NCBI GenBank assembly: GCA_025774935.1
Contig: JALGZK010000006.1
Location: 50,638 to 114,637, forward strand
DNA length: 64,000 bases
Source: a bacterium
GTDB lineage: Bacteria > Joyebacterota > Joyebacteria > Joyebacterales > Joyebacteraceae
Reading direction: 5' to 3'
Part shown: positions 5,034 through 57,255 of the stretch, piece by piece
Position numbering within the stretch: the stretch's first letter is position 1
How the letters are laid out: every line of letters begins with the position of its first letter
Made by a program: the position numbers and the translations under genes
The notes under the pieces: model-generated
Told to the model about the DNA's origin: nothing
Seen by the model: only the letters and a program-made list of their open reading frames with translations
The model's database searches: none

Positions 5034-5618
5034 ATGAGACTTGTGCTCACGGTTCTTCTGACCGCGGCCCTCGCAGTGTCCGCGTCCGCAGGCCTGAACC
5101 CCGACGCCCGGATGTACCTCGATTTCGACCCGCCGGACGGCGTTCACCGGATCGAGGAGCCCCCGGACCCCGTCGTGAACATCTACGTTGTGCTGGACTG
5201 CCTCGGAGTGGACAGCGGAATAAACGGGTGCACGATTCACTTCGAGCGGACCTTTGGGGCCACGGCTCACGACGAGGTCTGCCTGATCGGCTTCTTCAGC
5301 GGCGGGGACGTCGAGGACCCGGAGTTCGGATGGTACATCGTTACCCAAGGCGAGTGCATCTACCCCGACGCGAACGGGATGATCATCGTCGGCTACGTTC
5401 TCTACTATTACACTGGTCCTCCCGGCTACGTGAAGATCGCTGCGGCCGAGGTTGCAGGCAAGGAGGTGCTCGACTGCAACAACATGACCGACGTGTACTG
5501 CGTAGCCGACAACGCCGGCATCGGTGCCGACCCGCCTCCGGGCGACCCCGGCTGCTACTGTGGACCGGTGCCCGTCGAGGACGCGAGTTGGGGGACGATC
5601 AAGTCCCTGTACCGGTGA
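5034..5618 (+). CDS. Small secreted protein with WGxIK-type C-terminal tail
   Basis: 194 aa. The ATG is preceded by AGGGAGG. A clear Sec signal peptide (residues 1-19, ending A-S-A) is followed by a beta-rich Cys-containing domain with a pattern suggesting an immunoglobulin-like or cohesin-like fold; I do not recognise a family. The last 15 residues (PVEDASWGTIKSLYR) match the ends of four other secreted proteins in this window, which are otherwise unrelated or only partly related. A C-terminal sorting or anchoring role is inferred from that sharing. It is followed by a strong terminator and then the secreted amylase, so a role in cell-surface glycan handling is possible but unproven. Confidence 0.75.
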   Translation: MRLVLTVLLTAALAVSASAGLNPDARMYLDFDPPDGVHRIEEPPDPVVNIYVVLDCLGVDSGINGCTIHFERTFGATAHDEVCLIGFFSGGDVEDPEFGWYIVTQGECIYPDANGMIIVGYVLYYYTGPPGYVKIAAAEVAGKEVLDCNNMTDVYCVADNAGIGADPPPGDPGCYCGPVPVEDASWGTIKSLYR

Positions 5619-5688: not shown

Positions 5689-5718
5689 TTGTGGGGACGC
5701 GGGGACGGCAGGTAGAAT
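5689..5718 (+). promoter_or_regulatory. Possible promoter of the amylase gene
   Basis: TTGTGG (5689-5694), an 18-base spacer, then TAGAAT (5713-5718), just after the terminator and ~90 bases before the amylase ATG. Confidence 0.4.
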
Positions 5719-5810
5719 GGATGAACGCCCGAAATCCACCGAATCGTGCGGACCCTCGGAATCGCGGGAGTCCACGTGGCCTGACCCGTAGTCCGAAGGA
5801 GAGGAACTCC

Positions 5811-8168
5811 ATGCCAGGCAGAGCCTTACGGCCGATCGCCCTCGTCGTCGTGGCAGTCTGCGTCGTCGCGGTCGCGGCGCCGGCGCCGTGCTCGGACTCG
5901 GGATCGGTCCTCCGGAAGGTCCCGTTCACGTTCGTTCCCGAGAGGGACTACGCGAGGGTCTTCCTCGCGGGGACCTTCAACGCATGGAGCACCGACGCGA
6001 CGCGCATGAACGAGGTCGAGGGGAGGTACGAGATCGATCTCCTCCTGCCGCTCGGGCAGTACCAGTACAAGTTCGTGGCGGACGGGGACTGGATTACCGA
6101 CGAGACGGCTCAGGCGTTCGCGCCCGACGGCTTCGGAGGGCAGAACTCCGTCGTGACGGTCGACGGTTCCTTCGAGGCGGTCCCACTCGAGGTCGGCGAC
6201 GGGCGCATCGTGACTGAGCACCTGGGGCACGGGCAGAACGCGTGGGAGGTCGTGCGGGCAGCCGACGGGAGCGTGTCGCTCCGGACGCGCGTCTGGAGCG
6301 GCGACGTCGAGGGGGTCACTGTTCGATGGCGCGTGGACGGTGGAGGGGCCGCCGGTGCGGAGGCGCCCGCGGGGGCCATCCCGATGGACCTCGTCGACGG
6401 CGACGGTCTCTTCGACTACTACGCGGCGACGATCGTGGCCGGCGCCACCTTCGACTACTTCTTCGAGATCGAGGACGGCGGGACGGTCTTCCGCCAGGGG
6501 CCGGACGGCCTGGTGGAGGCGCCGGGGTCGGCGGGGGAGTTCCGATTCGACGCCGATGAGTTCCCTGTCTTCCAGACGCCGGACTGGGTGAAAGAGGGGA
6601 TCATCTACCAGATCTTCCCCGAGCGGTTCGCCAACGGGGACCCCGACAACGACCCCGACTTCTCCGAGTGGTATTACGAGGGACTCACGGACCTCCCGAA
6701 CTCGGGACGGTCCAACGAGGAGTACTTCCACCTCGTCGACGACTGGTACGACATCGAGGGACTCGCGAAGAGCCCGTATCGGACGGACGAGAAGCCGGAC
6801 TGGTACTCGTTCTACGGGGGCGACGTCGCCGGGATCCATCAGCACCTCGACTATCTCGCGAACCTCGGGATCACGATCATCTACCTGAACCCGATCTTCC
6901 AGGCGAAGAGCAACCACAAGTACGACGCCGCGACCTACACGGAGATCGACCCGCACTTCGGGACGAACGAAGAGTTCGCCGCGTTCGTCGAGGCGTGTCA
7001 CGCGCGCGAGATCCGCGTCGTGATCGATCTCGCGTTCAACCACACCGGCGAGACGTTCTGGGCGTTCGTCGACACGCGCGAGCGGGGTGAGCGATCGGAG
7101 TACTGGGATTGGTACGAGTGGAAGAAGTGGCCGCTGCCCGACGGCTGGACGAGCGGAGGCCTCGAGTACTACGACTGCTGGTGGGGGTTCGGGCAGATGC
7201 CGAACCTCAACTTCGACCTCTCACGGCCCAACCCCGAGGAACACACGGTCAGGGACATCGACGACGCCGAGGTCAACTGGCCCGTCGTGAATCACCTGCT
7301 CGACGCGACGATCTACTGGCTCACCGAGATCGACGTCGACGGGTTCCGGCTGGACGTCGCGGGGGAGGTGCCGTTCTGGTTCTGGGAGCTCTTCCGCGGG
7401 CGCGTCCGGGCCGCCAAGCCCGACGCCTACATCCTGGGCGAGCTCTGGGGCGCGTCGCCCGAGTTCGTGAACGGGAAGTACTACGATGCGGTTATGAACT
7501 ACGCGTTCTTCCGCGACCCGCTCCTCGCGTTCGTTGTCCGCGGCGAGATGGACGCCGCGGCGTTCGACAGCGCGATCGCGCCCGGGAGGTTCGTCTACCC
7601 CGACGAGGGCGTGAGGGCGATGATGAACCTCCTCGACAGCCACGACACAGAACGCCTCCTGACGACGGCGTGGGGCGACACGCGCCGGCTCAAGCTCGCG
7701 GTCCTCTTCGGGATGACCTACGTGGGCGCACCGGCCCTCTACTATGGGGACGAGATCGCCATGCAGGGCGGTCGCGATCCGGACTGCCGCCGGCCGTTCC
7801 ACTGGAAGTGGAGGGACGACCCAGTGCGTGCGGACGTGCACGCGTACACGAGGCGGCTCATCGCGCTCCGAAAGGAACACCCGTGCTTCGCGCGGGGTTC
7901 CTTCCGGACGCTTCTCGCCGAGGGGCGCGTGTACGCCTACCACCGGAGCGCCGCCGGCGACGACGCCATCGTCGTCATGAACGCGGGGACCGAGCGGTCG
8001 ACCGTGATGGTCCCGCTCGAGGAGGCGCCGCCGCACGACCTCCTGAACGTCCTCACGCAGGAGACCGTGGCGGTCGCGGAGTCAGGCGACGGCCTCTCGT
8101 TCGAGGTGAGCGTCCCGCCGCTCACGGGCTACGTCTTCACCTACAGGAAATCGGAGAGCGAGCGCTAG
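5811..8168 (+). CDS. Secreted GH13 alpha-amylase-family glycoside hydrolase
   Basis: 785 aa. Signal peptide at residues 1-24. Residues ~30-110 form an AMPK/CBM48-type glycan-binding domain (V-F-L-A-G-T-F-N-A-W ... Y-K-F-V-A-D-G). A second beta domain (~130-245) resembles the N-terminal domain of cyclomaltodextrinase/neopullulanase. The GH13 barrel carries the four classic regions: DLAFNH, GFRLD with nucleophile Asp515, ILGE with acid/base Glu544, and NLLDSHD with Asp612. A small beta domain ends the protein. It would hydrolyse alpha-1,4 (and perhaps alpha-1,6) glucans outside the cytoplasm. It lacks the WGxIK tail found on the protein encoded upstream. The start chosen is the ATG directly before the signal peptide, with a GGAGAGG site. 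Confidence 0.93.
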   Translation: MPGRALRPIALVVVAVCVVAVAAPAPCSDSGSVLRKVPFTFVPERDYARVFLAGTFNAWSTDATRMNEVEGRYEIDLLLPLGQYQYKFVADGDWITDETAQAFAPDGFGGQNSVVTVDGSFEAVPLEVGDGRIVTEHLGHGQNAWEVVRAADGSVSLRTRVWSGDVEGVTVRWRVDGGGAAGAEAPAGAIPMDLVDGDGLFDYYAATIVAGATFDYFFEIEDGGTVFRQGPDGLVEAPGSAGEFRFDADEFPVFQTPDWVKEGIIYQIFPERFANGDPDNDPDFSEWYYEGLTDLPNSGRSNEEYFHLVDDWYDIEGLAKSPYRTDEKPDWYSFYGGDVAGIHQHLDYLANLGITIIYLNPIFQAKSNHKYDAATYTEIDPHFGTNEEFAAFVEACHAREIRVVIDLAFNHTGETFWAFVDTRERGERSEYWDWYEWKKWPLPDGWTSGGLEYYDCWWGFGQMPNLNFDLSRPNPEEHTVRDIDDAEVNWPVVNHLLDATIYWLTEIDVDGFRLDVAGEVPFWFWELFRGRVRAAKPDAYILGELWGASPEFVNGKYYDAVMNYAFFRDPLLAFVVRGEMDAAAFDSAIAPGRFVYPDEGVRAMMNLLDSHDTERLLTTAWGDTRRLKLAVLFGMTYVGAPALYYGDEIAMQGGRDPDCRRPFHWKWRDDPVRADVHAYTRRLIALRKEHPCFARGSFRTLLAEGRVYAYHRSAAGDDAIVVMNAGTERSTVMVPLEEAPPHDLLNVLTQETVAVAESGDGLSFEVSVPPLTGYVFTYRKSESER

Positions 8169-23802: not shown

Positions 23803-24813
23803 CTACAGTCCGAATCCCATCGATAGTCTCAGCGTGTCCTCCAGGTGGCCGAAGAGGTACGCGATGTCCAGGCCGATGACGCTCGATCCGGCCGCGACGT
23901 TCGCGCCCGCCCCCACGGAGAACTCCGAGAGCTCGCCCGACGATATCTCCTTGCGGTAGCCGCCGCGCAGAGCCGCCACGTCGAACAGCGTCACCTCCGC
24001 GCCGAGGAGCACGAGGTCGCGGCTGTCCTGGTGGAGGGCCTTGTCGAGATCGAGCTCCAGCAGAACGTTCCGGTGCGGCCGTGCCGCGACGCCGAACGCC
24101 AGCGCTGGCGGTACGCCTTCGTTGTACGAACCGCCGGCCGTGCTCTCCCAGCTGAGCGTGCTCAGTATGTCGCGCGCGGCGATTCCGAACGTGACGCGTT
24201 CTGTCACCGGGATCGTGGCGCCCGCGTCCAGCCCGAAGCCCAGCGCGCTTCCGGACACGTCGTCCTCGAAGCCGCTCGGGCTTCCGAAGGACGCCAGTCT
24301 CGTCCGGACGGTCGCCCCGACGTTCGTCGGACCGGCGTCGAGCCAGGGGAGTGACGACAGCGACGTCGCCGCTCCGAGGAGGACGGTCGTCTCCGAGAGC
24401 ACGTCGTCCCCCGAGTAGAGCAGCCCGATCCCGAGCGTGTACCGCTCACTCAGGCGGTAGGCAGCCGACGCCGCCGTGTAGGGGACGAGCCCCATGACGT
24501 CGGCGTAGTCGACGCTGAACTCCTTCGACCGTTCCCCGACGGCGAGCCCTGCCGGATTCCAGTAGAGGGAGCCCGCGCCGTGCGAGGTCACGACGACCGC
24601 TCCGCCCATGCCCATCGAGCGGGCGCCGATGCCCACGTCGACGAACGCGCCGGGGATGTCTGACACGCCTTCCGCCGAGGCGCCGGCGGGGAAGCACACC
24701 CCGAGCCCGATCGCCACGACCAGGGCGGCCGCCACTCCCGCCGACCGTCGGACCATCGCCCCTGAGCGGGCGACCGACGGGTGCAGCCTTCTACTGCGTG
24801 ATGTTCTCTCCAT
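23803..24813 (-). CDS. PorV/PorQ-type outer-membrane protein
   Basis: 336 aa. After a signal region (the hydrophobic core ends near residue 47), it begins D-I-P-G-A-F-V-D-V-G-I-G-A-R-S-M-G-M-G-G-A, with S-L-Y-W-N-P-A-G-L, the signature of the PorV/UPF0164 family. In type IX secretion PorV shuttles cargo carrying C-terminal domains. The remainder is a beta-barrel ending L-R-L-S-M-G-F-G-L. It is encoded 28 bases downstream of the 1704-aa protein whose C-terminal domain is of the cargo type, so the two probably work together. The start could be either Met 1 or Met 20. Confidence 0.85.
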   Translation of the reverse strand: MERTSRSRRLHPSVARSGAMVRRSAGVAAALVVAIGLGVCFPAGASAEGVSDIPGAFVDVGIGARSMGMGGAVVVTSHGAGSLYWNPAGLAVGERSKEFSVDYADVMGLVPYTAASAAYRLSERYTLGIGLLYSGDDVLSETTVLLGAATSLSSLPWLDAGPTNVGATVRTRLASFGSPSGFEDDVSGSALGFGLDAGATIPVTERVTFGIAARDILSTLSWESTAGGSYNEGVPPALAFGVAARPHRNVLLELDLDKALHQDSRDLVLLGAEVTLFDVAALRGGYRKEISSGELSEFSVGAGANVAAGSSVIGLDIAYLFGHLEDTLRLSMGFGL

Positions 24814-24841: not shown

Positions 24842-27800
24842 CTACTTGACCAGCACGATCGTCGCGTTCGCCGTTTCCGTGCGGCTCGCGTCCTCTGCCT
24901 CGATCCGCACCACGTACCTTCCGTTTCTCGCCGCCTTCCCCGCGTCGGTGAGCCCGTCCCAGAGGACCTGCGAGCGTCCCTTCGCCTGTGGTTCGTTGAC
25001 CACGATCTCCCTCACGAGCTGCGACGCCATGTTGTAGATCTTGACCGTCACGAACGGCATCCTGGATCTCGTCGAGGAGAGCTCATAGGAGATCACGGCG
25101 TCGGACGATCCGGGCGAGAACGGGTTCGGCTGGACCGCGATGTCGGTGATTCCGAGCTCCTCGGACTCCGTCGCCGTGACGAACTTCCCGAGCGCGGTGA
25201 GATCGACCGTGACGCCGTTCACCGCCTCCCAGCTGTTCATCAGCTCCCACTCGAGCTCGTCGCCGCTCCAGCGTGCGATCATCGCGTCCGCCATGGAGGT
25301 CGGAAGCATGAGCTCCGCCGGATGCTCCGGGTCGAACCCGAGATCGTCCGGCTTCAGGTGATAAGCGGCGCCGCGCACCTCGAACTCCTCTGTGGCGGCG
25401 AGCGCGTCGGGTACTTCCTCGTGCGCGAGGAACATCACCTGCGACTCGGTCACGGCGCCCGGCTCGATCACGAGCGTCATTCCCGTCGAGTCGAAGTAGG
25501 TCTCCTCCGTCTCAGGGGCGACGAGCGCGAAGACCGACGTCTCGAGTCTGCCGGTAAGGCCGGACTCCGCGTCTCTCGCGCCGATCATGAGCTCGCCGAT
25601 GTAGCCGTCCTTGCACCTGAGCTCGCCAGTTCGGTCCCCGATCGATCCGGCGGACTCCGGCGAGATCCACCACTCGAGGTCGACGTCGACGAGCCGCTCG
25701 CCCTGCGCGAACGCGACGCCCGTGAAGACCGACTCGCTCCCGGTCATGACCATGGACGAGCCTTCGATCTCGATCCTGTTGAGAACGGCTCGCTCGACGG
25801 TGAAGTCCTGACCCATCACGACCTCGCCCTCGCCGAGCACGAGCGACACCTGCGCCGGCGTCCCGAGACAGCGATCACCGGAGATGGTGAGGACGTAGGT
25901 CCCGGGCCTCACGTCCATGATCTCGTAGGCGCCGAGCTCGTCTGGCACGCACGAGCGCGAGTCGCCCGCGTACATCGTGCTCGTCGCGACTGCCTCGACG
26001 TCCTCCATCGCGAGGTCACCGCCGAGTAGGCTCACGGCGCCGATGATGCGTGCGAAGTTGCGCGGGAGGTTGAGGTCGATCAGCTCGCCTCCGACGGGTA
26101 CGCCCAGAGCCGTCTTCTCGAAGTAACCGTAGAGCGAAGCAGAGACCTCGTACGTTCCCATGGGGGCGAGCCCATCCAGCACGAACGCACCGTCCGGACC
26201 GGAGGTGGCTTCTCCGAAGTACCCCTGGCCGTTGTCCGCTGTGACCGCCGCGGCGGCGAGCGGCTCGCCAGTCTGCGCGTCGTGCACGTGGCCGACGATC
26301 GTGCCGTCCGCCGCGAGCATCGTGAAGCCGACGTCAAGCGTCTCGGTCGGGACGTCAGTCACCGGGTTGTCTGAGACGCAGTAGAGGCCTTCCTTCGACA
26401 CGAATATGTCGTAGACCTGTTCGTCGTCGAGGTCGCTCAGGAAGAAGAGCCCGTCTCCGTCCGTCACGTCCGTCGCCGCCACGTTCTCGCCGATCTTGGC
26501 ACGGACCGAGGCGCCTTCGATCCCGGCGCCGCCGGGGTCGGTGACGCTGCCGGCGATCGCGCCGGTGAGTTCGACCAGATCGATGTCGAAGAGCAGGTTC
26601 TCGAGCTCCCCGACCTCGACAGAGGCCCAGCCGCTCTTGTAGCCGTTGAGCGTGGCCCTGACGTCGACTAAGCCCGGAACGACGGGACCACTGTCGAACC
26701 AGCCGGACCGTCCCGTGACGTCGGACGTGGCGCCGCCCTCCCACCTGGCGGTGACGAGCGCTCCCTCGAGTGCCTCGCCCGAGACCGAGTCGCGGACCGT
26801 TCCCTGAATCGTCGCGAAGAGCTGGTTGAGCTCTACGGTCATGTCGACCACTTCGTCGGGCGCCACGGAGATCCCGGACACCGTCTCGGTCTCGTACCCG
26901 GGGCGCACGACCCTCAGGCTCGACGTGCCCGCCTCTACGGGCAGGTTGAACCAACCGCTTCGACCGGTCCTTCCAGACCGGATCCAGACGCTGTCTCCCC
27001 AGGACGCGACGACGAGGGCATCGTCGACGGTGTTCCCGCTCCCGTCTTCGATGTATCCCTGGATCACGCCGGGATATGGTGTCAGAGAGACGTACTCAGC
27101 GTGCTCGTCCTCGACGTTCATCGCGGCGATGGCGATGCTCCGGCACCCGTGTCCGTCCGCGCGCGCCTCGAGCGTGTACATCTCGTCGGCGGCGACGTTG
27201 ATCACGTAGTAGCCGTTCATGCCCGTGACAGTGCTGTATGAGGGCGCGTTCTCTCCCTCTCGGTACAGCTGCACGGACGCCCTCTGCAGGGCGTCGCGTC
27301 CGCCGCTCACGACTCCGTAGACTGTGGCCCATGCGGCGGAGACCTCGAGGTCGACTCCAGTGGCTGACTGCCCCGCCGCGAGGAGTACCTGCACGGGCTC
27401 CGACGCTCCGAATCCGTCCTTGGAGGCCGCGACAGCCCAGTCGCCGCCTTCGAGGAGGAGTGCGTAGTTGCCGGCCACGTCGGCCGACGTCAGAATCTGC
27501 TGCGCGTTGTTCGTGGCCGTCACGAACGCGTGCGCGACGGGGGCACCGTTGTGAAGGACAGCGCCCGAGATGAGACCCGCACCCGGCGCAACGGTGATCA
27601 CGATTCCCGAGATCTCCTGACCTGGTGACGTCGCCACGAGGACCGGCGGTCCCGTGGAATACCCGGCCTTGACAGTCGAGAGGTGGTGGAGTCCGGGCGC
27701 GACCTGGAGCGAGAACGCTCCCGCCGCGTCGGTCGTCGTCTGCGCGTCGCCGTCAGAGACGACGGCGCCTTCGACCGGTTCGCCGCCCGCGAGCACCAGG

Positions 27801-29956
27801 CCCTCGATGAGGCAGCTTCGCGCCTCGACGATGAGGTCGAGTCCCGTGTAGATCTCGCCTGTCTCGACCGTCACCTGCTGCGCGTTCGCCGGCCGATACC
27901 CGGAAACCTCCGCCCACATCTGATAGGTCCCGCTCGGAGGTGTGAGGACGAACTCGCCGTAGGTGTCGGTCGTGGTGGTGAGAACGGTTCCGGCTGGAGG
28001 CACCGCGTGGACGAGCGCGTTCGCGAAGAACACGTCGCCGTCTGTGACCCTGCCTGAGACCGTCGCGGCCACGGGCGAGAGAACGAACGAGGGCGTGACC
28101 TCGACGTGCCCGCCTGCCGGGACGTCGACCTCCCTCGGGTCGGTTGGCACGAAGCCGCTCTTCTCTGCCCAGAGCGTCCACTGCCCCGGGGCGAGCTCCA
28201 GCGAGAAGTGCCCGTTCGCGGTCGTCGCGGCCGCGTGCGACTCGGCGGCGTTCTCGGCCCAGACGGTCGCTCCCGAGACCGGACTTCCGGCCGCGTTGAC
28301 CACGCTGCCCGTCACCGTCCCGGCCTCGCCCGTGAGCACGAGCGGATTCGGGAGCTGCACGTGCTCGTATGACTCGGCGTCGACGAACTGGCTCTCCGAC
28401 GGGATATACCCGCCCTTCTTGGCGTAGACCTCCCACGGTCCCGCCGTCACCGAGAGCAGGAAGTTCCCGTTCTGGTCGCTGAACCCGTTGACGTCCGCGT
28501 GGGCCTCCGACTGCCCAAAGATCTCCGCGTCGAAGACCGGGGCGCCGAACTCGTCGACCACGGTCCCGCTGATCTGTGCCGGGGCGCGGGGGAGTCGGAA
28601 GAGCACGCTCGTGTCCGAGCCCGGGTTGATCGGAACGTGCGCGTATTCGGTGACGTAGTAGTTCTTGCTTGCCGTGAGGAGGTAGTTGCCCGGCGGGAGC
28701 TGGCGTTCACAGATCCCGTCGTCGTTCGTCATGGATGGAGGCAGGGTGACCCCACCTGCCTCGTACTCGATCTCGATCAGGACGTTGGGGAGAACGTCAC
28801 CGTTGGACGTCTCCGTCTTAATGAGCGCCGTTCCGGCGGCATCCGCATCGTACATGAACGAGCGCAGGTCCGAAGGGGCTCCCGCGCCCTGGGAGTCGAG
28901 CGCGACCACGCGCCACCTGTGTTCGCCGTGCGTCAGGATGGAGCCGAGATTGACCTGTCTCTCGGTCGTGCTCGAAGCGCCGTCCCAGATGGGGAACGCC
29001 GCGTCTCTGCCCCCGAAGTCGCGAAGCTGGTAGATGTAGAGGTGGTACCCCGCGGCGTCGTCTACCGAGGCCCACGTGAAGTCGACGAACTGACCTCCGA
29101 CGACTGCGGAGTCCGCCGGGGCTAACTGCAGCGGACTCTGGACCGCCGCCTGGACGTCGGTCGTGAACCCGGACATTCCCACCGCCGCGAGCGACGACAT
29201 GAGCGGGTGGTTGCCGTAGTTGTTGAGTACGAGCCAGTTGTACGTGAGTCCCTCCATGAGCGGCGGACTCGTGCCGTTCGAGTCGGTGAAGTGACCCGAG
29301 GGGTCGATGCTCCCGTACTGGATCGAGGTCTCGCTCGTGATCGCCTGCCAGACGATGTTCAGGTTCTTAACGGAGATCCTGGAGCCGTCGGGCTCCACAG
29401 CGATCTCGGTGTCGCAGACGATGACGTGGTAGTAAGGGGTCCCGAAGACCGGGTCCCACCCGAGCGTTGTCGTCGTCTCATGGATGACGCTGCCGTTCGG
29501 CGGCGACGTCGGCTGCGGCGCGATCGGCGCCTCGATAACGAGCTGGAACTGCTCGGAGTGATCGGGGAAGCTCGCGCGGTGGACGATGCAGTAGTAGATG
29601 CCTGGGGGCATGAGCTCGTCCGCGGGCCTGAAGCTCAGCGACTGCGTCCCGCTGGCTGAGGTCATGTTCGTGAAGACACCCGGCTCCGTCCCGTAGTCGA
29701 TGTGGCAGAAGTACGGCTCCTCCCACGTGATCACGACCTCGTCGTAGATACCGACCATCTCCTGGGGGTGGCTCAGGAGTGTGATGGTGGCCGGGTTGCG
29801 CATGTCGACCGGGTCCGCTCCCGCGTCGGTCGTCCACAGGAGGATCGCGCCGACCGCCGCGACCGCGCAGATCGCGATGCGGCGCGGAAGCGAGATCGCC
29901 CGCGTCCGTTCCTGACGCCCGTGCCTTCTCCTGCGTCTGTGCTTCCTCGCTATCAT
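24842..29956 (-). CDS. Giant secreted multi-domain protein with FlgD-like/T9SS-type C-terminal domain
   Basis: 1704 aa. A basic start and signal helix (residues ~24-48) are followed by two or three fibronectin-like domains (~50-375). About ten carboxypeptidase-regulatory-like domains follow (~375-1330; repeated I-x-G-x-V-x-D/N ... G-A-x-V ... T-D-x-x-G-x-F), each a ~85-residue beta sandwich. Then comes a non-repeat region (~1340-1600) and a last domain of ~95 residues (V-Q-P-N-P-F-S-P-G ... V-K-I-Y-N-M ... W-D-G-L-T-D-A-G-K ... G-R-Y-V-V-R-I-E-A) typical of FlgD-Ig/T9SS type A sorting domains. It is probably exported by a type IX-like route and surface bound, with adhesive or structural function. 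The PorV-like gene follows. Confidence 0.85.
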   Translation of the reverse strand: MIARKHRRRRRHGRQERTRAISLPRRIAICAVAAVGAILLWTTDAGADPVDMRNPATITLLSHPQEMVGIYDEVVITWEEPYFCHIDYGTEPGVFTNMTSASGTQSLSFRPADELMPPGIYYCIVHRASFPDHSEQFQLVIEAPIAPQPTSPPNGSVIHETTTTLGWDPVFGTPYYHVIVCDTEIAVEPDGSRISVKNLNIVWQAITSETSIQYGSIDPSGHFTDSNGTSPPLMEGLTYNWLVLNNYGNHPLMSSLAAVGMSGFTTDVQAAVQSPLQLAPADSAVVGGQFVDFTWASVDDAAGYHLYIYQLRDFGGRDAAFPIWDGASSTTERQVNLGSILTHGEHRWRVVALDSQGAGAPSDLRSFMYDADAAGTALIKTETSNGDVLPNVLIEIEYEAGGVTLPPSMTNDDGICERQLPPGNYLLTASKNYYVTEYAHVPINPGSDTSVLFRLPRAPAQISGTVVDEFGAPVFDAEIFGQSEAHADVNGFSDQNGNFLLSVTAGPWEVYAKKGGYIPSESQFVDAESYEHVQLPNPLVLTGEAGTVTGSVVNAAGSPVSGATVWAENAAESHAAATTANGHFSLELAPGQWTLWAEKSGFVPTDPREVDVPAGGHVEVTPSFVLSPVAATVSGRVTDGDVFFANALVHAVPPAGTVLTTTTDTYGEFVLTPPSGTYQMWAEVSGYRPANAQQVTVETGEIYTGLDLIVEARSCLIEGLVLAGGEPVEGAVVSDGDAQTTTDAAGAFSLQVAPGLHHLSTVKAGYSTGPPVLVATSPGQEISGIVITVAPGAGLISGAVLHNGAPVAHAFVTATNNAQQILTSADVAGNYALLLEGGDWAVAASKDGFGASEPVQVLLAAGQSATGVDLEVSAAWATVYGVVSGGRDALQRASVQLYREGENAPSYSTVTGMNGYYVINVAADEMYTLEARADGHGCRSIAIAAMNVEDEHAEYVSLTPYPGVIQGYIEDGSGNTVDDALVVASWGDSVWIRSGRTGRSGWFNLPVEAGTSSLRVVRPGYETETVSGISVAPDEVVDMTVELNQLFATIQGTVRDSVSGEALEGALVTARWEGGATSDVTGRSGWFDSGPVVPGLVDVRATLNGYKSGWASVEVGELENLLFDIDLVELTGAIAGSVTDPGGAGIEGASVRAKIGENVAATDVTDGDGLFFLSDLDDEQVYDIFVSKEGLYCVSDNPVTDVPTETLDVGFTMLAADGTIVGHVHDAQTGEPLAAAAVTADNGQGYFGEATSGPDGAFVLDGLAPMGTYEVSASLYGYFEKTALGVPVGGELIDLNLPRNFARIIGAVSLLGGDLAMEDVEAVATSTMYAGDSRSCVPDELGAYEIMDVRPGTYVLTISGDRCLGTPAQVSLVLGEGEVVMGQDFTVERAVLNRIEIEGSSMVMTGSESVFTGVAFAQGERLVDVDLEWWISPESAGSIGDRTGELRCKDGYIGELMIGARDAESGLTGRLETSVFALVAPETEETYFDSTGMTLVIEPGAVTESQVMFLAHEEVPDALAATEEFEVRGAAYHLKPDDLGFDPEHPAELMLPTSMADAMIARWSGDELEWELMNSWEAVNGVTVDLTALGKFVTATESEELGITDIAVQPNPFSPGSSDAVISYELSSTRSRMPFVTVKIYNMASQLVREIVVNEPQAKGRSQVLWDGLTDAGKAARNGRYVVRIEAEDASRTETANATIVLVK

Positions 29957-35181: not shown

Positions 35182-36009
35182 ATGAAGCGGCTTGCCACGA
35201 TCCTCGTGACCGGAGCGATCCTCCTCGCGTTCGCTTCGAGTTCGATGGGCGCCATCGGCTGGTGCGGGAACATCTGGCCCAACAACGGCGTCCAGTACAC
35301 GTCGAACGACAACATCGACGTGTACGTGCAGGTCTGGAAGGACGGCTGCACAGGCTGCGACCTCGGCCCGTGCGCCGACATCGAGGCCTACCTGTACTAC
35401 CGCTGCGAGGGCGACCCGGACTTCATCGAGGTCCCGATGACCTTCAACGTCTGCGTCTTCAACAACGACGAGTTCATCGGACAGATCCCGGCCGGACACG
35501 GCTGCGACGTCGTCGAGTACTACGTGAAGGTGGTCGACACGACCGACAACGACGAGTGCTACGGGAACGATCAGGCGGGCAATCCCCCGAACTTCTTCCT
35601 GCCCATCGTCGAGGTCACCGGCCAGGACGTCACAGTGCGCTTCAACCTGTGCCTGACGAGCGCCATCGAGACGGCCGGCGGCGTCTGCGTGACCGGCGCG
35701 GGCGACCCGCTCACGAACTGGGGCGACGGCGTGCCCATGAACTTCAACTGCGAAGCGGCCAGCCCGAAGCTCTACTTCGTCGACGTGCTCTTCCCGGCCG
35801 GTACGAATCCCTACGTCGAGTACAAGTACAAGAAGGACGACTGCGCGACGTGGGAAGGCACTGGGAACCACAGCTTCTCGATCGACGACTCGGGTGCGAC
35901 CCAGGAGCTTCCTCTGGACGGTTGGGAGTGGTTGGACCCCGACTGTCCCGAGTGCCCGAGCCCCGTCGAGGACGCGACGTGGGGCACGATCAAGGGGTTG
36001 TACCGATAG
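35182..36009 (+). CDS. Secreted Cys-rich protein with CBM20-like domain and WGxIK tail
   Basis: 275 aa. Strong GGAGGAGGAAGG site; signal peptide ends M-G-A near residue 23. An N-terminal beta domain (~24-145) has several paired Cys. The domain at ~150-258 (V-T-V-R-F-N-L-C ... V-C-V-T-G ... W-G-D-G-V-P-M ... Y-K-Y-K-K-D-D-C-x-T-W-E) resembles a starch-binding CBM20/E-set fold. It ends in PSPVEDATWGTIKGLYR, the tail shared with four other secreted proteins here. Its C-terminal domain is closely paralogous to that of the next gene. Starch-type glycan binding outside the cell is inferred from the fold. Confidence 0.78.
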   Translation: MKRLATILVTGAILLAFASSSMGAIGWCGNIWPNNGVQYTSNDNIDVYVQVWKDGCTGCDLGPCADIEAYLYYRCEGDPDFIEVPMTFNVCVFNNDEFIGQIPAGHGCDVVEYYVKVVDTTDNDECYGNDQAGNPPNFFLPIVEVTGQDVTVRFNLCLTSAIETAGGVCVTGAGDPLTNWGDGVPMNFNCEAASPKLYFVDVLFPAGTNPYVEYKYKKDDCATWEGTGNHSFSIDDSGATQELPLDGWEWLDPDCPECPSPVEDATWGTIKGLYR

Positions 36010-36046
36010 TGGGGCCTGCTTATTCAGTCGGATGAGTACGTGCGAT

Positions 36047-36075
36047 CAGGCCCCGGCGGCGGACGTCGGGGCCTG
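36047..36075 (+). terminator. Terminator-like hairpin between cluster genes
   Basis: CAGGCCCC (36047-36054) pairs with GGGGCCTG (36068-36075), loop of 13. No T-run follows, so it may only attenuate. Confidence 0.45.
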
Positions 36076-36157
36076 ACTCGCGACTTGGCCTGACAGACGC
36101 CGGGGATGGCCCGAGGCACGAAGTCGCGGGCACCCCGAGCGGAAGGGGGATGCAGAG

Positions 36158-37174
36158 ATGAAGTGGATTGCGGCGATTCTGACGGCTGCCTTTCTCGTCG
36201 TTCCGGCCGCGGCACTCGCGGGCCCGAGCGTCGTCGGCAGCATGCAGGGCTGGGATCCTGCGGATCCCAACTACGATCTGTCGCTGAACGGAAATGGAGT
36301 CTGGGTCCTGACGAAGTCCCTGCTCGCGGGCTTCCACGAGTACAAGGTCACGGAGACCGACGCGTGGGACGGGAACGACTTCCCCGGCGCGAACCAGTCG
36401 TTCACGCTCGCCGGTGACGATGACGTGACCTGGTACGTCAACCTCGGCGCCACCGTCGGCGTCAAGGAGGGTGACGAGTTCGTCTTCCACAGCCCGAACC
36501 CGCCCATCATGGCCGGTGACTTCCAGAGCGAGCTCGGCGGCATCGACTGGGATCCGTTCGACACGGTGAACACGGTCATGACCGACACCAACGGTGACGA
36601 CGTCTGGGAGTTCACAGCCGTCATCGCGCCCGGGGGCGACTACCAGGGCAAGGTCGTCCTGAACAACAATTGGGACCAGAGCACCGGCGACAACGTCTCC
36701 TTCAGCTCCGACGGCACGAGCCCGATCACGTTCACGTACGACATGGCGACGAACACGACGGCGGTCTCCACGCAGGTCGTGACACAGCAGGACGTCACCG
36801 TCACGTTCCACCTCTGCCTGAGCGACACGACCGTGACGTCGGGCGCCGTCTGCGTGACCGGCAACCAGCCCCCGATCACCGTCTGGGGGAACGGCGTGCC
36901 GATGGAGGCGGACTGCCCGTCGGTGAGCCCCGGGCTCTACTCGGTCGACGTGCTCTTCCCCGCGGGGAGCGATCCGTTCGTCGAGTACAAGTACAGGAAG
37001 GACGACTGCGAGACGTGGGAGGACGGTGGGAATCGGAGCTTCAACATCGACGACTCCGGGTCTACCATGGAGCTCGAGCTCGACGGATGGAGCTACATCG
37101 AGCCCGACTGCCCGCCGTGCTCGTCCCCGGTCGAGAACGCGACCTGGGGCGTCATCAAGGCTCTCTATAGATAG
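36158..37174 (+). CDS. Secreted chimeric glycan-binding-like protein with WGxIK tail
   Basis: 338 aa. Signal peptide ends A-L-A near residue 21. Residues ~22-125 (S-V-V-G-S-M-Q-G-W-D-P-A-D-P-N-Y ... Y-K-V-T-E-T-D-x-W-D-G-N-D-F) resemble the X25/pullulanase-type starch-associated domain; residues ~125-200 are a second such unit. Residues ~205-320 are the CBM20-like domain found in the preceding gene. The end is SSPVENATWGVIKALYR. The N-terminal ~200 residues match the following gene and the C-terminal ~130 match the preceding one, so it is a mosaic of its two neighbours. Surface glycan binding is inferred. Confidence 0.78.
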   Translation: MKWIAAILTAAFLVVPAAALAGPSVVGSMQGWDPADPNYDLSLNGNGVWVLTKSLLAGFHEYKVTETDAWDGNDFPGANQSFTLAGDDDVTWYVNLGATVGVKEGDEFVFHSPNPPIMAGDFQSELGGIDWDPFDTVNTVMTDTNGDDVWEFTAVIAPGGDYQGKVVLNNNWDQSTGDNVSFSSDGTSPITFTYDMATNTTAVSTQVVTQQDVTVTFHLCLSDTTVTSGAVCVTGNQPPITVWGNGVPMEADCPSVSPGLYSVDVLFPAGSDPFVEYKYRKDDCETWEDGGNRSFNIDDSGSTMELELDGWSYIEPDCPPCSSPVENATWGVIKALYR

Positions 37175-37299
37175 CGCCAGAGACGGAAGACAGGCAGCAC
37201 TCGGAAGACGTGTACCGCTGAGACGTCGAGGATGCGGGGTCCGCGCGGGCCCCGAGCGACCGGACGAACGATCTCTCGGTGCGAAGGAGGGAGGTTGGC

Positions 37300-39024
37300 A
37301 TGAAATTCATCACGGCGGCCCTCGTGGTCGCTCTGTTTGCCGCCCCGGCCGCGTTCGCGGATCCGAGCGTGGTCGGGAGCATGCAGGGATGGGATCCTGC
37401 GGATCCGGATTACATCTTGGAGCTCCAGGCGAACGGCGTCTGGGAGCTCGAGAAGCTGCTCGAGGCCGGGTCGTACGACTACAAGGTGACGGAGACCGAC
37501 CTCTGGGACGGGAACGACTTCCCCAGCAACAACCAGACGGTCTCCGTCGACGGGTTCGACTTCCTCGTCTGGTACGTCAACCTGGGCGCGACGGTAGGCA
37601 CGAAGGAGGGGGACGAGTACGTCTTCCATAGCGAGAACCCGCCGATCGTCTGCGGCGACTTCATGGACGAGCTCGGCGGGACCGACTGGGATCAGACCGA
37701 CGAGACGCTGACGGACATGAACGACGACGGGCTCGAGGGCGACGGCGTTGCCGGCGACGGCATCTACTCGTGGGAGTCGGTGATCCCAGCGGGGAGCTAC
37801 AACTTCAAGGTCGTGCTGAACAACAACTGGGACCAGGACACGTACCCGCCGGCACAGAACTACGTGTTCGGCTCGAACGGAACCGACGCGGTCCTCTTCC
37901 GCTACCACATGTACGACAACACTACCGAGGTCTTCACCGAGGCGCCGGGCTCTGTCCTCTACGCGAGGGCGGAGACGGGGGACGGCCCCGTCCGCGTCAA
38001 GTTCTCGAAGAACATGGACCCAGTCACTTCCCAGGTCCCTGGGAACTACAGCCTCGTTGGTGACGTGTCGGGTGCCCAGGCAATCGTCTCCGCGATCCAG
38101 GACCCGGACGACCACAGCATCGTGCGCCTGATCCTCGGCGCGCGCGCCATCCTGCCGGCGGGCGACGACTTCACGCTGACGGTGACCGGCGTCGAGGACG
38201 CAAGCGGGAACCCCATCGATCCCCTGAACAACACCGGCTGCTTCTACACCAACGAGGTGACGTTCGAGATCAACATGCACGTCTACATCGAGGAGAACGG
38301 TCTTCCCGCGACGCTTCACATCCAGGGGGACACCGAGCCTCTGACGTGGGGACAGTGCGAGGGGTCCGAGGCCTTCGACAACGGCGTCGCGCCCGACGTA
38401 GCGGCGGCAGACAGCACGTACACGCTTCAGGAGTTCTTCGCGATCCCGTACGACTGCGACGACACGCCCGCGGGCGTCCAGGTCAAGTACAAGTACATCG
38501 TGGACTGCACGACGTGGGAGGGCGACTTCGACTTCGGGCACTTCGTGGATCTGTCTCCTGACTCGTCGAGCTTCGGGGTGAACGTGTGGTGGAACGACAT
38601 GGCGCCTCAGGACTTCACGACGTGCGACGTCAACGTCCTCTTCCGCGTGTCGAACGCGGCGGCGGGATGCGACACGATCGCGCTCGCGGGATCGGAGCTT
38701 CCGCTCGACTGGGATCCTCCGTACGACTTCCTGCTGAACGACGACGGGCTCATGGGCGACGAGACGCCGGGCGACGGGATCTTCTCGCGGCTCGTCACGT
38801 TCCCGAGCGGGACGTTCAGGTCTCTGAACTACAAGTACGTCTGCAACAACGCCCTCGAGTGCGACGGTCTGCCGGACCGTACGCTCGAGCTCGACGACGT
38901 GAACGCGTGCGCACCGAACCAGATGGAGGTTCTCGACCTCTACGACTGGTGCTCGCCGGTCACCGGGATCGAGCTCCAGCCGATCTCGTGGGGCAAGCTG
39001 AAATCGATGTACCAGGCGAAGTAG
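37300..39024 (+). CDS. Large secreted multi-domain protein with variant WGxIK tail
   Basis: 574 aa from the ATG at 37300 (GGAGGGAGG site). Signal peptide ends A-F-A near residue 20. Two X25/SusE-like units (~20-205) are paralogous to the previous gene. A fibronectin/Big-like domain follows (~210-315: V-R-V-K-F-S-K-N-M-D-P ... F-T-L-T-V-T-G-V-E-D-A-S-G-N), then two further E-set domains each with several Cys (~320-435, ~440-555). The last residues read ISWGKLKSMYQAK, a diverged form of the tail with a four-residue insertion before the Trp-Gly. It is followed by a strong terminator. Probably surface-located, binding alpha-glucan. Confidence 0.75.
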   Translation: MKFITAALVVALFAAPAAFADPSVVGSMQGWDPADPDYILELQANGVWELEKLLEAGSYDYKVTETDLWDGNDFPSNNQTVSVDGFDFLVWYVNLGATVGTKEGDEYVFHSENPPIVCGDFMDELGGTDWDQTDETLTDMNDDGLEGDGVAGDGIYSWESVIPAGSYNFKVVLNNNWDQDTYPPAQNYVFGSNGTDAVLFRYHMYDNTTEVFTEAPGSVLYARAETGDGPVRVKFSKNMDPVTSQVPGNYSLVGDVSGAQAIVSAIQDPDDHSIVRLILGARAILPAGDDFTLTVTGVEDASGNPIDPLNNTGCFYTNEVTFEINMHVYIEENGLPATLHIQGDTEPLTWGQCEGSEAFDNGVAPDVAAADSTYTLQEFFAIPYDCDDTPAGVQVKYKYIVDCTTWEGDFDFGHFVDLSPDSSSFGVNVWWNDMAPQDFTTCDVNVLFRVSNAAAGCDTIALAGSELPLDWDPPYDFLLNDDGLMGDETPGDGIFSRLVTFPSGTFRSLNYKYVCNNALECDGLPDRTLELDDVNACAPNQMEVLDLYDWCSPVTGIELQPISWGKLKSMYQAK

Positions 39025-56622: not shown

Positions 56623-57255
56623 ATGCGGTTCTGCCATCTCGGTGGTAGCCTGTTGGTCTGTGCGCTCGCGGCGGTCTTGGTCGTGACCCTTGCGCCCGCC
56701 GCGGACGCACAGGACCAGTTCCACTTCGAGCTCGTCGCCGTGCCGGACGGTGCGACGCGCGACATCCCGCCCGACGGGTCGCCGTGGCACGAGCTCTACC
56801 CGACGTTCTGCGTCGATCACGAGCAGACCGGCTACGAGGACAACGGCGACGGCTACGTCAGCGAATGCGACTTCATCTACATCGACGGCCTTCGGTTCCA
56901 CATCATCTGGGCAGGTCCGACCTACAAGCTCGAGACCGGGCCGACCGAGGGCGACAGGCCGGGGCACGAGAAGTACATGGAGCCCATGGGGTTCGGACCC
57001 GAGCGGAACCCGTTGTGCGAGATCTGGCACGAGGTCTACCCGGACTACTGCATGGAGTGGCACGTCGAGGACTGGGCCGACAACGGGGACGGCTACGTGA
57101 GCCCCTGCGACTTCGTGTGGATCTGGAGCGAGGGGCACGGGATGGAGCAGTTCCACGTCACGGAGGTGAACCTCAACATCATCGCCGTGCCCGACAGCCC
57201 GGTCGAGGACAGCACCTGGGGCAAGATCAAGTCGTTCTTCTCCGAGCTCTTTTAG
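56623..57255 (+). CDS. Secreted two-repeat protein with EF-hand-like loops and WGxIK tail
   Basis: 210 aa from the ATG at 56623, with an AAGGAGGTG site. Signal peptide ends A-D-A near residue 29. Two internal repeats of ~65 residues each contain W-H-E-x-Y-P-x-x-C followed by a calcium-loop-like D-N-G-D-G-Y-V-S-x-C-D-F (near residues 83 and 150), like one half of an EF-hand or dockerin. The end is DSPVEDSTWGKIKSFFSELF, the fifth tail protein in the window. Strong terminator follows. Calcium binding and surface location are inferences. Confidence 0.78.
   Translation: MRFCHLGGSLLVCALAAVLVVTLAPAADAQDQFHFELVAVPDGATRDIPPDGSPWHELYPTFCVDHEQTGYEDNGDGYVSECDFIYIDGLRFHIIWAGPTYKLETGPTEGDRPGHEKYMEPMGFGPERNPLCEIWHEVYPDYCMEWHVEDWADNGDGYVSPCDFVWIWSEGHGMEQFHVTEVNLNIIAVPDSPVEDSTWGKIKSFFSELF

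Follow-up and report, generated by a model that had tools for sequence, protein, structure and literature searches.

A short conserved peptide closes five secreted proteins encoded in the stretch of DNA analysed here, a window of 64,000 nucleotides (contig C21:50638–114637) in the 3.24-Mb genome (G000) of an uncultured bacterium. This tail, together with a PorU-like C25 peptidase paralogue that we call gamma and that is a candidate to read it, is the subject of this report. In the window sequence all five genes lie on the plus strand, and their products have plausible signal-peptide starts and a common ending at the stop codon, with a diverged copy in the 37300 protein, just as the original prediction had described. 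The genes and their tails are as follows.

5034..5618, + strand: secreted protein of 194 amino acids with a predicted cohesin fold and the tail at its end; belongs to the family of tail proteins encoded beside the putative sortase gamma
5568..5615, + strand: tail VPVEDASWGTIKSLYR of the 5034 protein (read from the sequence; tail hidden Markov model, HMM)
35182..36009, + strand: secreted protein with a CBM20 starch-binding domain (domain match) and a terminal tail
35959..36006, + strand: tail SPVEDATWGTIKGLYR of the 35182 protein (read from the sequence; tail HMM)
36158..37174, + strand: secreted protein with pullulanase X25 and CBM20 domains (domain match) and a terminal tail
37124..37171, + strand: tail SPVENATWGVIKALYR of the 36158 protein (read from the sequence; tail HMM)
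37300..39024, + strand: secreted protein with an X25 domain, a choice-of-anchor X domain (73 bits, cut-off 25) and a diverged tail
38968..39021, + strand: diverged tail IELQPISWGKLKSMYQAK of the 37300 protein (read from the sequence; tail HMM)
56623..57255, + strand: secreted protein containing a pair of EF-hand/dockerin-like loops (DNGDGYVSxCDF); its tail closes with a few additional residues
57196..57252, + strand: tail SPVEDSTWGKIKSFFSELF of the 56623 protein (read from the sequence; tail HMM)

The bodies of the 35182, 36158 and 37300 proteins are mutually related, and the 5034 body is a member of a separate, large cohesin-like family. The 5034 gene lies directly upstream of an alpha-amylase/cyclomaltodextrinase-like gene (5691–8168); this amylase-like neighbour and the CBM20 and X25 starch modules of the 35182–39024 genes perhaps belong to a surface starch system.

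The tail motif and its position

An HMM built from the five window tails gave 98 matches at E ≤ 10 across the whole genome. The motif lies near the stop codon in 96 of the 98 matched open reading frames (ORFs), and the tail family comprises approximately 95 proteins. When the tails are registered on the tryptophan, a 16-residue consensus emerges, [ST]-P-V-E-x-[AS]-[TS]-W-G-x-I-K-[AGS]-[LM]-[YF]-R-stop, with exactly four residues after the lysine of WGxIK in 81 tails and 5–13 residues in a few. Column information rises from approximately 0.2–0.5 bit upstream to 0.9–6.4 bits across exactly the final 16 positions, the values of the W and K columns being set in part by the pattern used for registration. 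Among 3349 ORFs of this genome, W[GS]x[IVLM]K occurs 95 times within 12 residues of the stop and 6 times elsewhere, against a chance expectation of approximately 9% for terminal placement, and four permuted control motifs, which are rare and not terminal, give 0–2 terminal matches each. As this ORF set includes the regions fetched around nearly all 98 HMM matches, the count tests the position of the motif and not its frequency; in position, it exceeds chance at the C-terminus, in line with the original prediction.

No Pfam or NCBIfam model covers the motif, and it was not found in the literature searched. A hydrophobic 17-residue window (>1.6) within the last 60 residues is present in only 2 of 95 tail proteins, which upholds the earlier claim that the tail is without a hydrophobic helix of the PEP-CTERM kind. 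The tail also has no GxY, which is motif D of type IX secretion system (T9SS) signals, and its conservation is limited to the 16 residues.

The proteins that carry the tail are diverse and predominantly exported. A crude finder predicts a signal peptide in 88 of the 95, and four of the seven failures are proteins of fewer than 100 amino acids that resemble gene fragments. With starts restricted to the first 60 codons, the finder returns 73/95 tail ORFs and 28/80 other ORFs, the latter being a high background. Only four of the 88 signal-peptide-positive proteins have a lipobox-like sequence and so, given the rarity of hydrophobic stretches near the C-terminus, neither a lipid nor a transmembrane anchor is usual. 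Once the tails are removed, BLAST sorts the bodies into 50 clusters, the biggest with 15 members, and the bodies match Pfam and NCBIfam domains that include beta-helix, PKD, LTD, plastocyanin, pectate lyase, cohesin, CBM20/X25 and MAM-like domains. The tail is thus not found mainly on cytoplasmic proteins and is not a property of one homologous family. The matches to NCBIfam and Pfam that were listed for 92 of the tail proteins include no sorting-signal model, whether of the T9SS type or any other.

Among the bodies there are also choice-of-anchor V, J and X domains, which score over their NCBI cut-offs. This name is given by NCBI to domains that bear differing C-terminal anchors in differing taxa. 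Long proteins of the same genomes have a FlgD-Ig/T9SS-type domain at their C-terminus (...WDGRDDxGxxVASGVYFxRLxAGxxxxxRKMVLLK), and in four cases homologous bodies carry either the tail or this domain: the 5034 family (tail) and a 981-residue protein in L183; the 37300 protein (tail) and L200:5882–7921; proteins in L043, L045 and L085 and five proteins in L089; and a protein pair inside L204. The choice-of-anchor bodies and this exchange form the pattern that interchangeable sorting signals show.

Tails are present in 20 of 20 genomes of the bacterium's own phylum, at 34–110 per genome. A broad sample of 290 genomes contains six from outside this phylum that pass E ≤ 1e-5, and a looser cut-off gives 27–47 tails in five of these six. 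When named genomes were scanned with a DNA pattern, tails were found also in Candidatus Eisenbacteria, Krumholzibacteriia, Latescibacterota, UBP1 and others; most bacteria have none. Genomes in the phylum of G213 usually carry 7–38 tails, with only 0–2 in family f224. Genes directly upstream of gamma (L339:13164–18917, L334:13468–15225) carry a tail variant, [ST]FGxVK, in which F replaces W and the terminal R is at times missing, and the tail counts for Krumholzibacteriota are therefore lower bounds, as the W-based model misses such variants. Lone matches in Ignavibacteria, Chlorobi, Zixibacteria and Caldithrix were set aside as apparent chance hits.

Gamma, a PorU-like paralogue linked to the tail

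Inspection of C25 loci near tails brought gamma to light, first beside tail clusters in the bacterium's own phylum and in Eisenbacteria; in this genome it lies beyond the window, at contig C15:2746–6531. It carries a C25 domain (PF01364, 204 bits, cut-off 23) and a propeptide (61 bits, cut-off 22), and the catalytic His and Cys are kept in 12 of 12 aligned gammas. In a full-length tree, from which gingipain fragments were left out, gamma and PorU form separate clades with support of 100/99 each. Gamma is not PorU2 either, since it scores 97–105 bits against NF052324 (cut-off 450). Literature searches on PorU2 and on Eisenbacteria with type IX secretion returned no paper.

The original prediction suggested testing whether the tail co-occurs with one particular protease or sortase-like gene, and the outcome is positive for gamma, which often adjoins tail genes. 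In genomes outside the bacterium's own phylum, with gamma counted if full-length or cut by a contig end, it is present in 28/31 tail-rich and 6/31 tail-poor genomes (Fisher p = 1e-8, uncorrected for relatedness; part of the tail-poor genomes scored by the strict tail cut-off only). The gamma model was seeded only with gammas of the bacterium's own phylum and of Eisenbacteria; with lineages collapsed and these seed lineages left out, the figures are 8/10 and 0/19 (p = 1e-5). Gamma was also seen in G085 and G255, two genomes missed by the strict tail search, in which a looser search then gave 19 and 18 tails. The same looser search gave 0–2 tails in nine genomes that have PorU only.

Gene order points in the same direction. 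At 15 gamma loci outside the bacterium's own phylum, picked independently of tails, eight have a tail gene on the same strand no more than 6 kb upstream, where 0.3 would be expected. Included here are a four-tail cluster in a Latescibacterota genome, two tails in UBP1, and runs of [ST]FGxVK-variant tail genes in Krumholzibacteriota and G044. Within the own phylum, at least 12 genomes have tail clusters upstream of gamma and on its strand.

The proteins encoded beside gamma give a further link to the window, as the gamma-adjacent tail proteins of several phyla and the 5034 protein form one connected family, some of whose links are weak and depend in part on the tail. The 5034 protein matches no Pfam family at E ≤ 1, the cohesin family PF00963 included; one other tail protein of the genome matches PF00963 at 2e-25. 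A structural model of the 5034 protein is of low confidence (mean predicted local distance difference test score, pLDDT, 58), with the final 18 residues below 50 and a short helix at residues 189–193. When the model is compared with known structures, cohesins nevertheless rank above all else (Foldseek best 4e-4), and the VIA comparison (Z 11.4, 126 residues, root-mean-square deviation 2.9) has cohesins or cohesin modules in all of its first 41 places. On the strength of this model, the 5034 body is predicted to have a cohesin fold.

A gene neighbouring gamma in nine genomes encodes a protein with two terminal dockerin-type repeats, for which the Pfam model Dockerin_1 gives 18.8 and 17.4 bits in two proteins, under its cut-off of 22.9. 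The window's 56623–57255 protein, with its two DNGDGYVSxCDF loops, could be a dockerin partner. In the search around gamma loci, a PorV-family gene was found near gamma only in G346.

Several other candidate partners were rejected. The presence of a C25 peptidase as such is not informative, as one is found in all tail-bearing but also in most tail-free panel genomes; in the Eisenbacteria phylum it is present in 47 of 47 genomes. Gingipain-like C25 genes follow two tail genes at L251:3416–9603, L245:7378–13599 and L246:5325–9501, an order kept in three genera of the phylum. Where these peptidases are complete, they have a T9SS-type ending; this, their different clade and their lack of generality led to their rejection as partner. 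Clustering of neighbour genes at random tail loci revealed no recurrent partner, and a reading of the tail as an outer-membrane-protein beta-signal was dropped on inspection alone.

A proposed sorting signal for gamma, and rival readings

We consider it likely, though well short of certain, that gamma is a T9SS-derived sortase and that it reads the 16-residue tail as a C-terminal sorting signal. That the tail is a signal for secreted proteins, as the earlier reading held, is well supported on genomic grounds, and the tail probably serves as a label, hitherto undescribed, by which proteins are fixed to the cell surface. That gamma is its reader is supported by three lines of evidence, namely co-occurrence, gene order and prediction. 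In the mechanism that we propose, a Sec signal peptide would bring the tail proteins to the periplasm, where the tail, a short terminal peptide after a folded body and probably flexible or amphipathic, would route them to a dedicated PorU-like C25 cysteine transpeptidase, gamma. We infer that gamma recognises and processes the tail, cleaving or joining the protein near it and so fixing the protein on the outer surface, as PorU does with T9SS cargo. By analogy with that system, the T9SS translocon may carry tail proteins across the outer membrane, with surface anchoring as the presumed end point. The founding substrates would apparently have been the small cohesin-like proteins encoded beside gamma and the dockerin-like protein, and the signal would later have spread to dozens of further secreted proteins in these phyla. 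A broader proposal, which we advance tentatively and which may well not hold, is that several uncultured phyla possess a second T9SS-derived display pathway, in which a dedicated PorU-like sortase reads a 16-residue peptide in place of a folded domain and builds a cohesin/dockerin surface layer that holds dozens of enzymes and binding proteins.

Several observations weigh against gamma as the reader of the tail. Gamma is not one resolved clade in a tree of the C25 domain only, and two gammas score 252 and 258 bits against the PorU model NF033707, whose cut-off is 420. G347 and five genomes of the Eisenbacteria family f224, which together make up the six gamma-positive but tail-poor cases, have only 0–2 tails; in one of the family, G373, a tail gene lies approximately 2.5 kb from gamma. 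Conversely, gamma was not detected in the tail-rich genomes G297 (52 matches), G310 (12) and G316 (9), draft assemblies in which its loss to gaps is an assumption. For G297 (DHS20C21) and G310 (Gemmatimonadaceae COS4_bin_9), either assembly gaps or another partner would fit. Finally, the phyla that have both tail and gamma may share ancestry, in which case the association would reflect co-inheritance.

The strongest rival, which we nonetheless regard as unlikely, is that the tail is a minimal T9SS signal for ordinary PorV and PorU, with gamma a co-inherited paralogue and the cohesin-like linkage otherwise caused. The genome does encode a true PorU (531 bits, cut-off 420) and PorV-family proteins, C25 peptidases occur in every tail-bearing panel genome, and bodies alternate between tail and T9SS-type domain. 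Short T9SS domains of 40–55 residues are known in Prevotella intermedia (PMC11969387), the T9SS type A domain being a beta-strand domain of 40–80 residues with motifs B, D (GxY) and E (PMC11969387). The tail, however, lacks motif D and is too short for the three strands of the known short domains, many genomes with PorU-like proteins have no tails, and it is gamma, not PorU, that tracks the tail.

It is less probable still that the tail is an uncleaved amphipathic docking peptide for a receptor in the outer membrane or a surface scaffold, with gamma not its enzyme. The poorly ordered last residues and short helix of the single low-confidence 5034 model are compatible with such a peptide, as are the few tails with 5–13 residues after the lysine, which imply that a free C-terminal end may be dispensable. 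Docking alone would leave unexplained why the tail is linked to, and co-occurs with, a cysteine transpeptidase homologue. A role as a periplasmic degradation or quality-control tag is very improbable: PDZ-type proteases can read short C-terminal peptides of hydrophobic and basic residues, but this tail is retained on some 95 secreted proteins that are diverse and look functional, and it alternates with a secretion domain. Mere shared ancestry of the terminal segment, or an alignment artefact, has next to no probability, for although one body cluster holds 15 proteins, the 50 unrelated clusters, the exact C-terminal placement and the recurrence in several phyla refute it.

As a sorting signal for gamma, the tail would most resemble the T9SS type A domain (TIGR04183, FlgD_ig PF13860) and PorU, which likewise pair a C-terminal signal on Sec-exported proteins with an enzyme of the PorU-related C25 family and coexist with the tail in the same genomes and on homologous bodies. 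It differs in having 16 residues instead of approximately 40–80, no beta-sandwich and no GxY, and in having the separate gamma clade, and not PorU, as its likely partner. PorU2 (NF052324) and PorV2 (NF052325) are similar in being second PorU- and PorV-like proteins in T9SS genomes. With PEP-CTERM/exosortase, GlyGly-CTERM/rhombosortase and MYXO-CTERM the tail shares its many unrelated secreted proteins per enzyme and its choice-of-anchor bodies, but it has no transmembrane helix or basic cluster, and gamma is a relative of surface cysteine peptidases whereas their enzymes are intramembrane. LPXTG and class A sortase offer the same concept of a sorting signal read by a transpeptidase; the tail differs in its motif, its diderm host, its want of a membrane anchor and the unrelated family of its putative enzyme. 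The predicted cohesin fold of the 5034 protein and the two dockerin-type repeats beside gamma recall cellulosomes, although here the sequences are below cut-off, and the cohesin-like proteins are single and small in place of a multi-cohesin scaffoldin.

The tail flags about 100 proteins per genome, mostly without a family assignment, and so offers a handle on the surface proteins of uncultured phyla. Should our reading hold, this C-terminal signal would dispense with a folded domain and still act through a T9SS-type sortase, so that the least that such sortases require could be tested. For surface display, a 16-residue tag that anchors proteins and comes with an enzyme of its own would also be a compact tool. 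A cellulosome-like surface beyond the usual anaerobes is suggested by the linked cohesin- and dockerin-like proteins.

The genome's other C-terminal signal is also represented in the window, and two features are given for context only.

24842..29956, − strand: surface protein of 1704 amino acids with a FlgD-Ig (T9SS-type) C-terminal domain
23803..24813, − strand: PorV/PorQ-family outer-membrane protein of the T9SS-type shuttle family (98 bits, cut-off 90)

The genome has 26 C25 peptidase matches, which is unusually many, and the complete ones examined end in T9SS-type domains. The 1704-residue protein contains eleven carboxypeptidase-regulatory-like repeats, and the PorV/PorQ-family gene that follows it may encode its shuttle.

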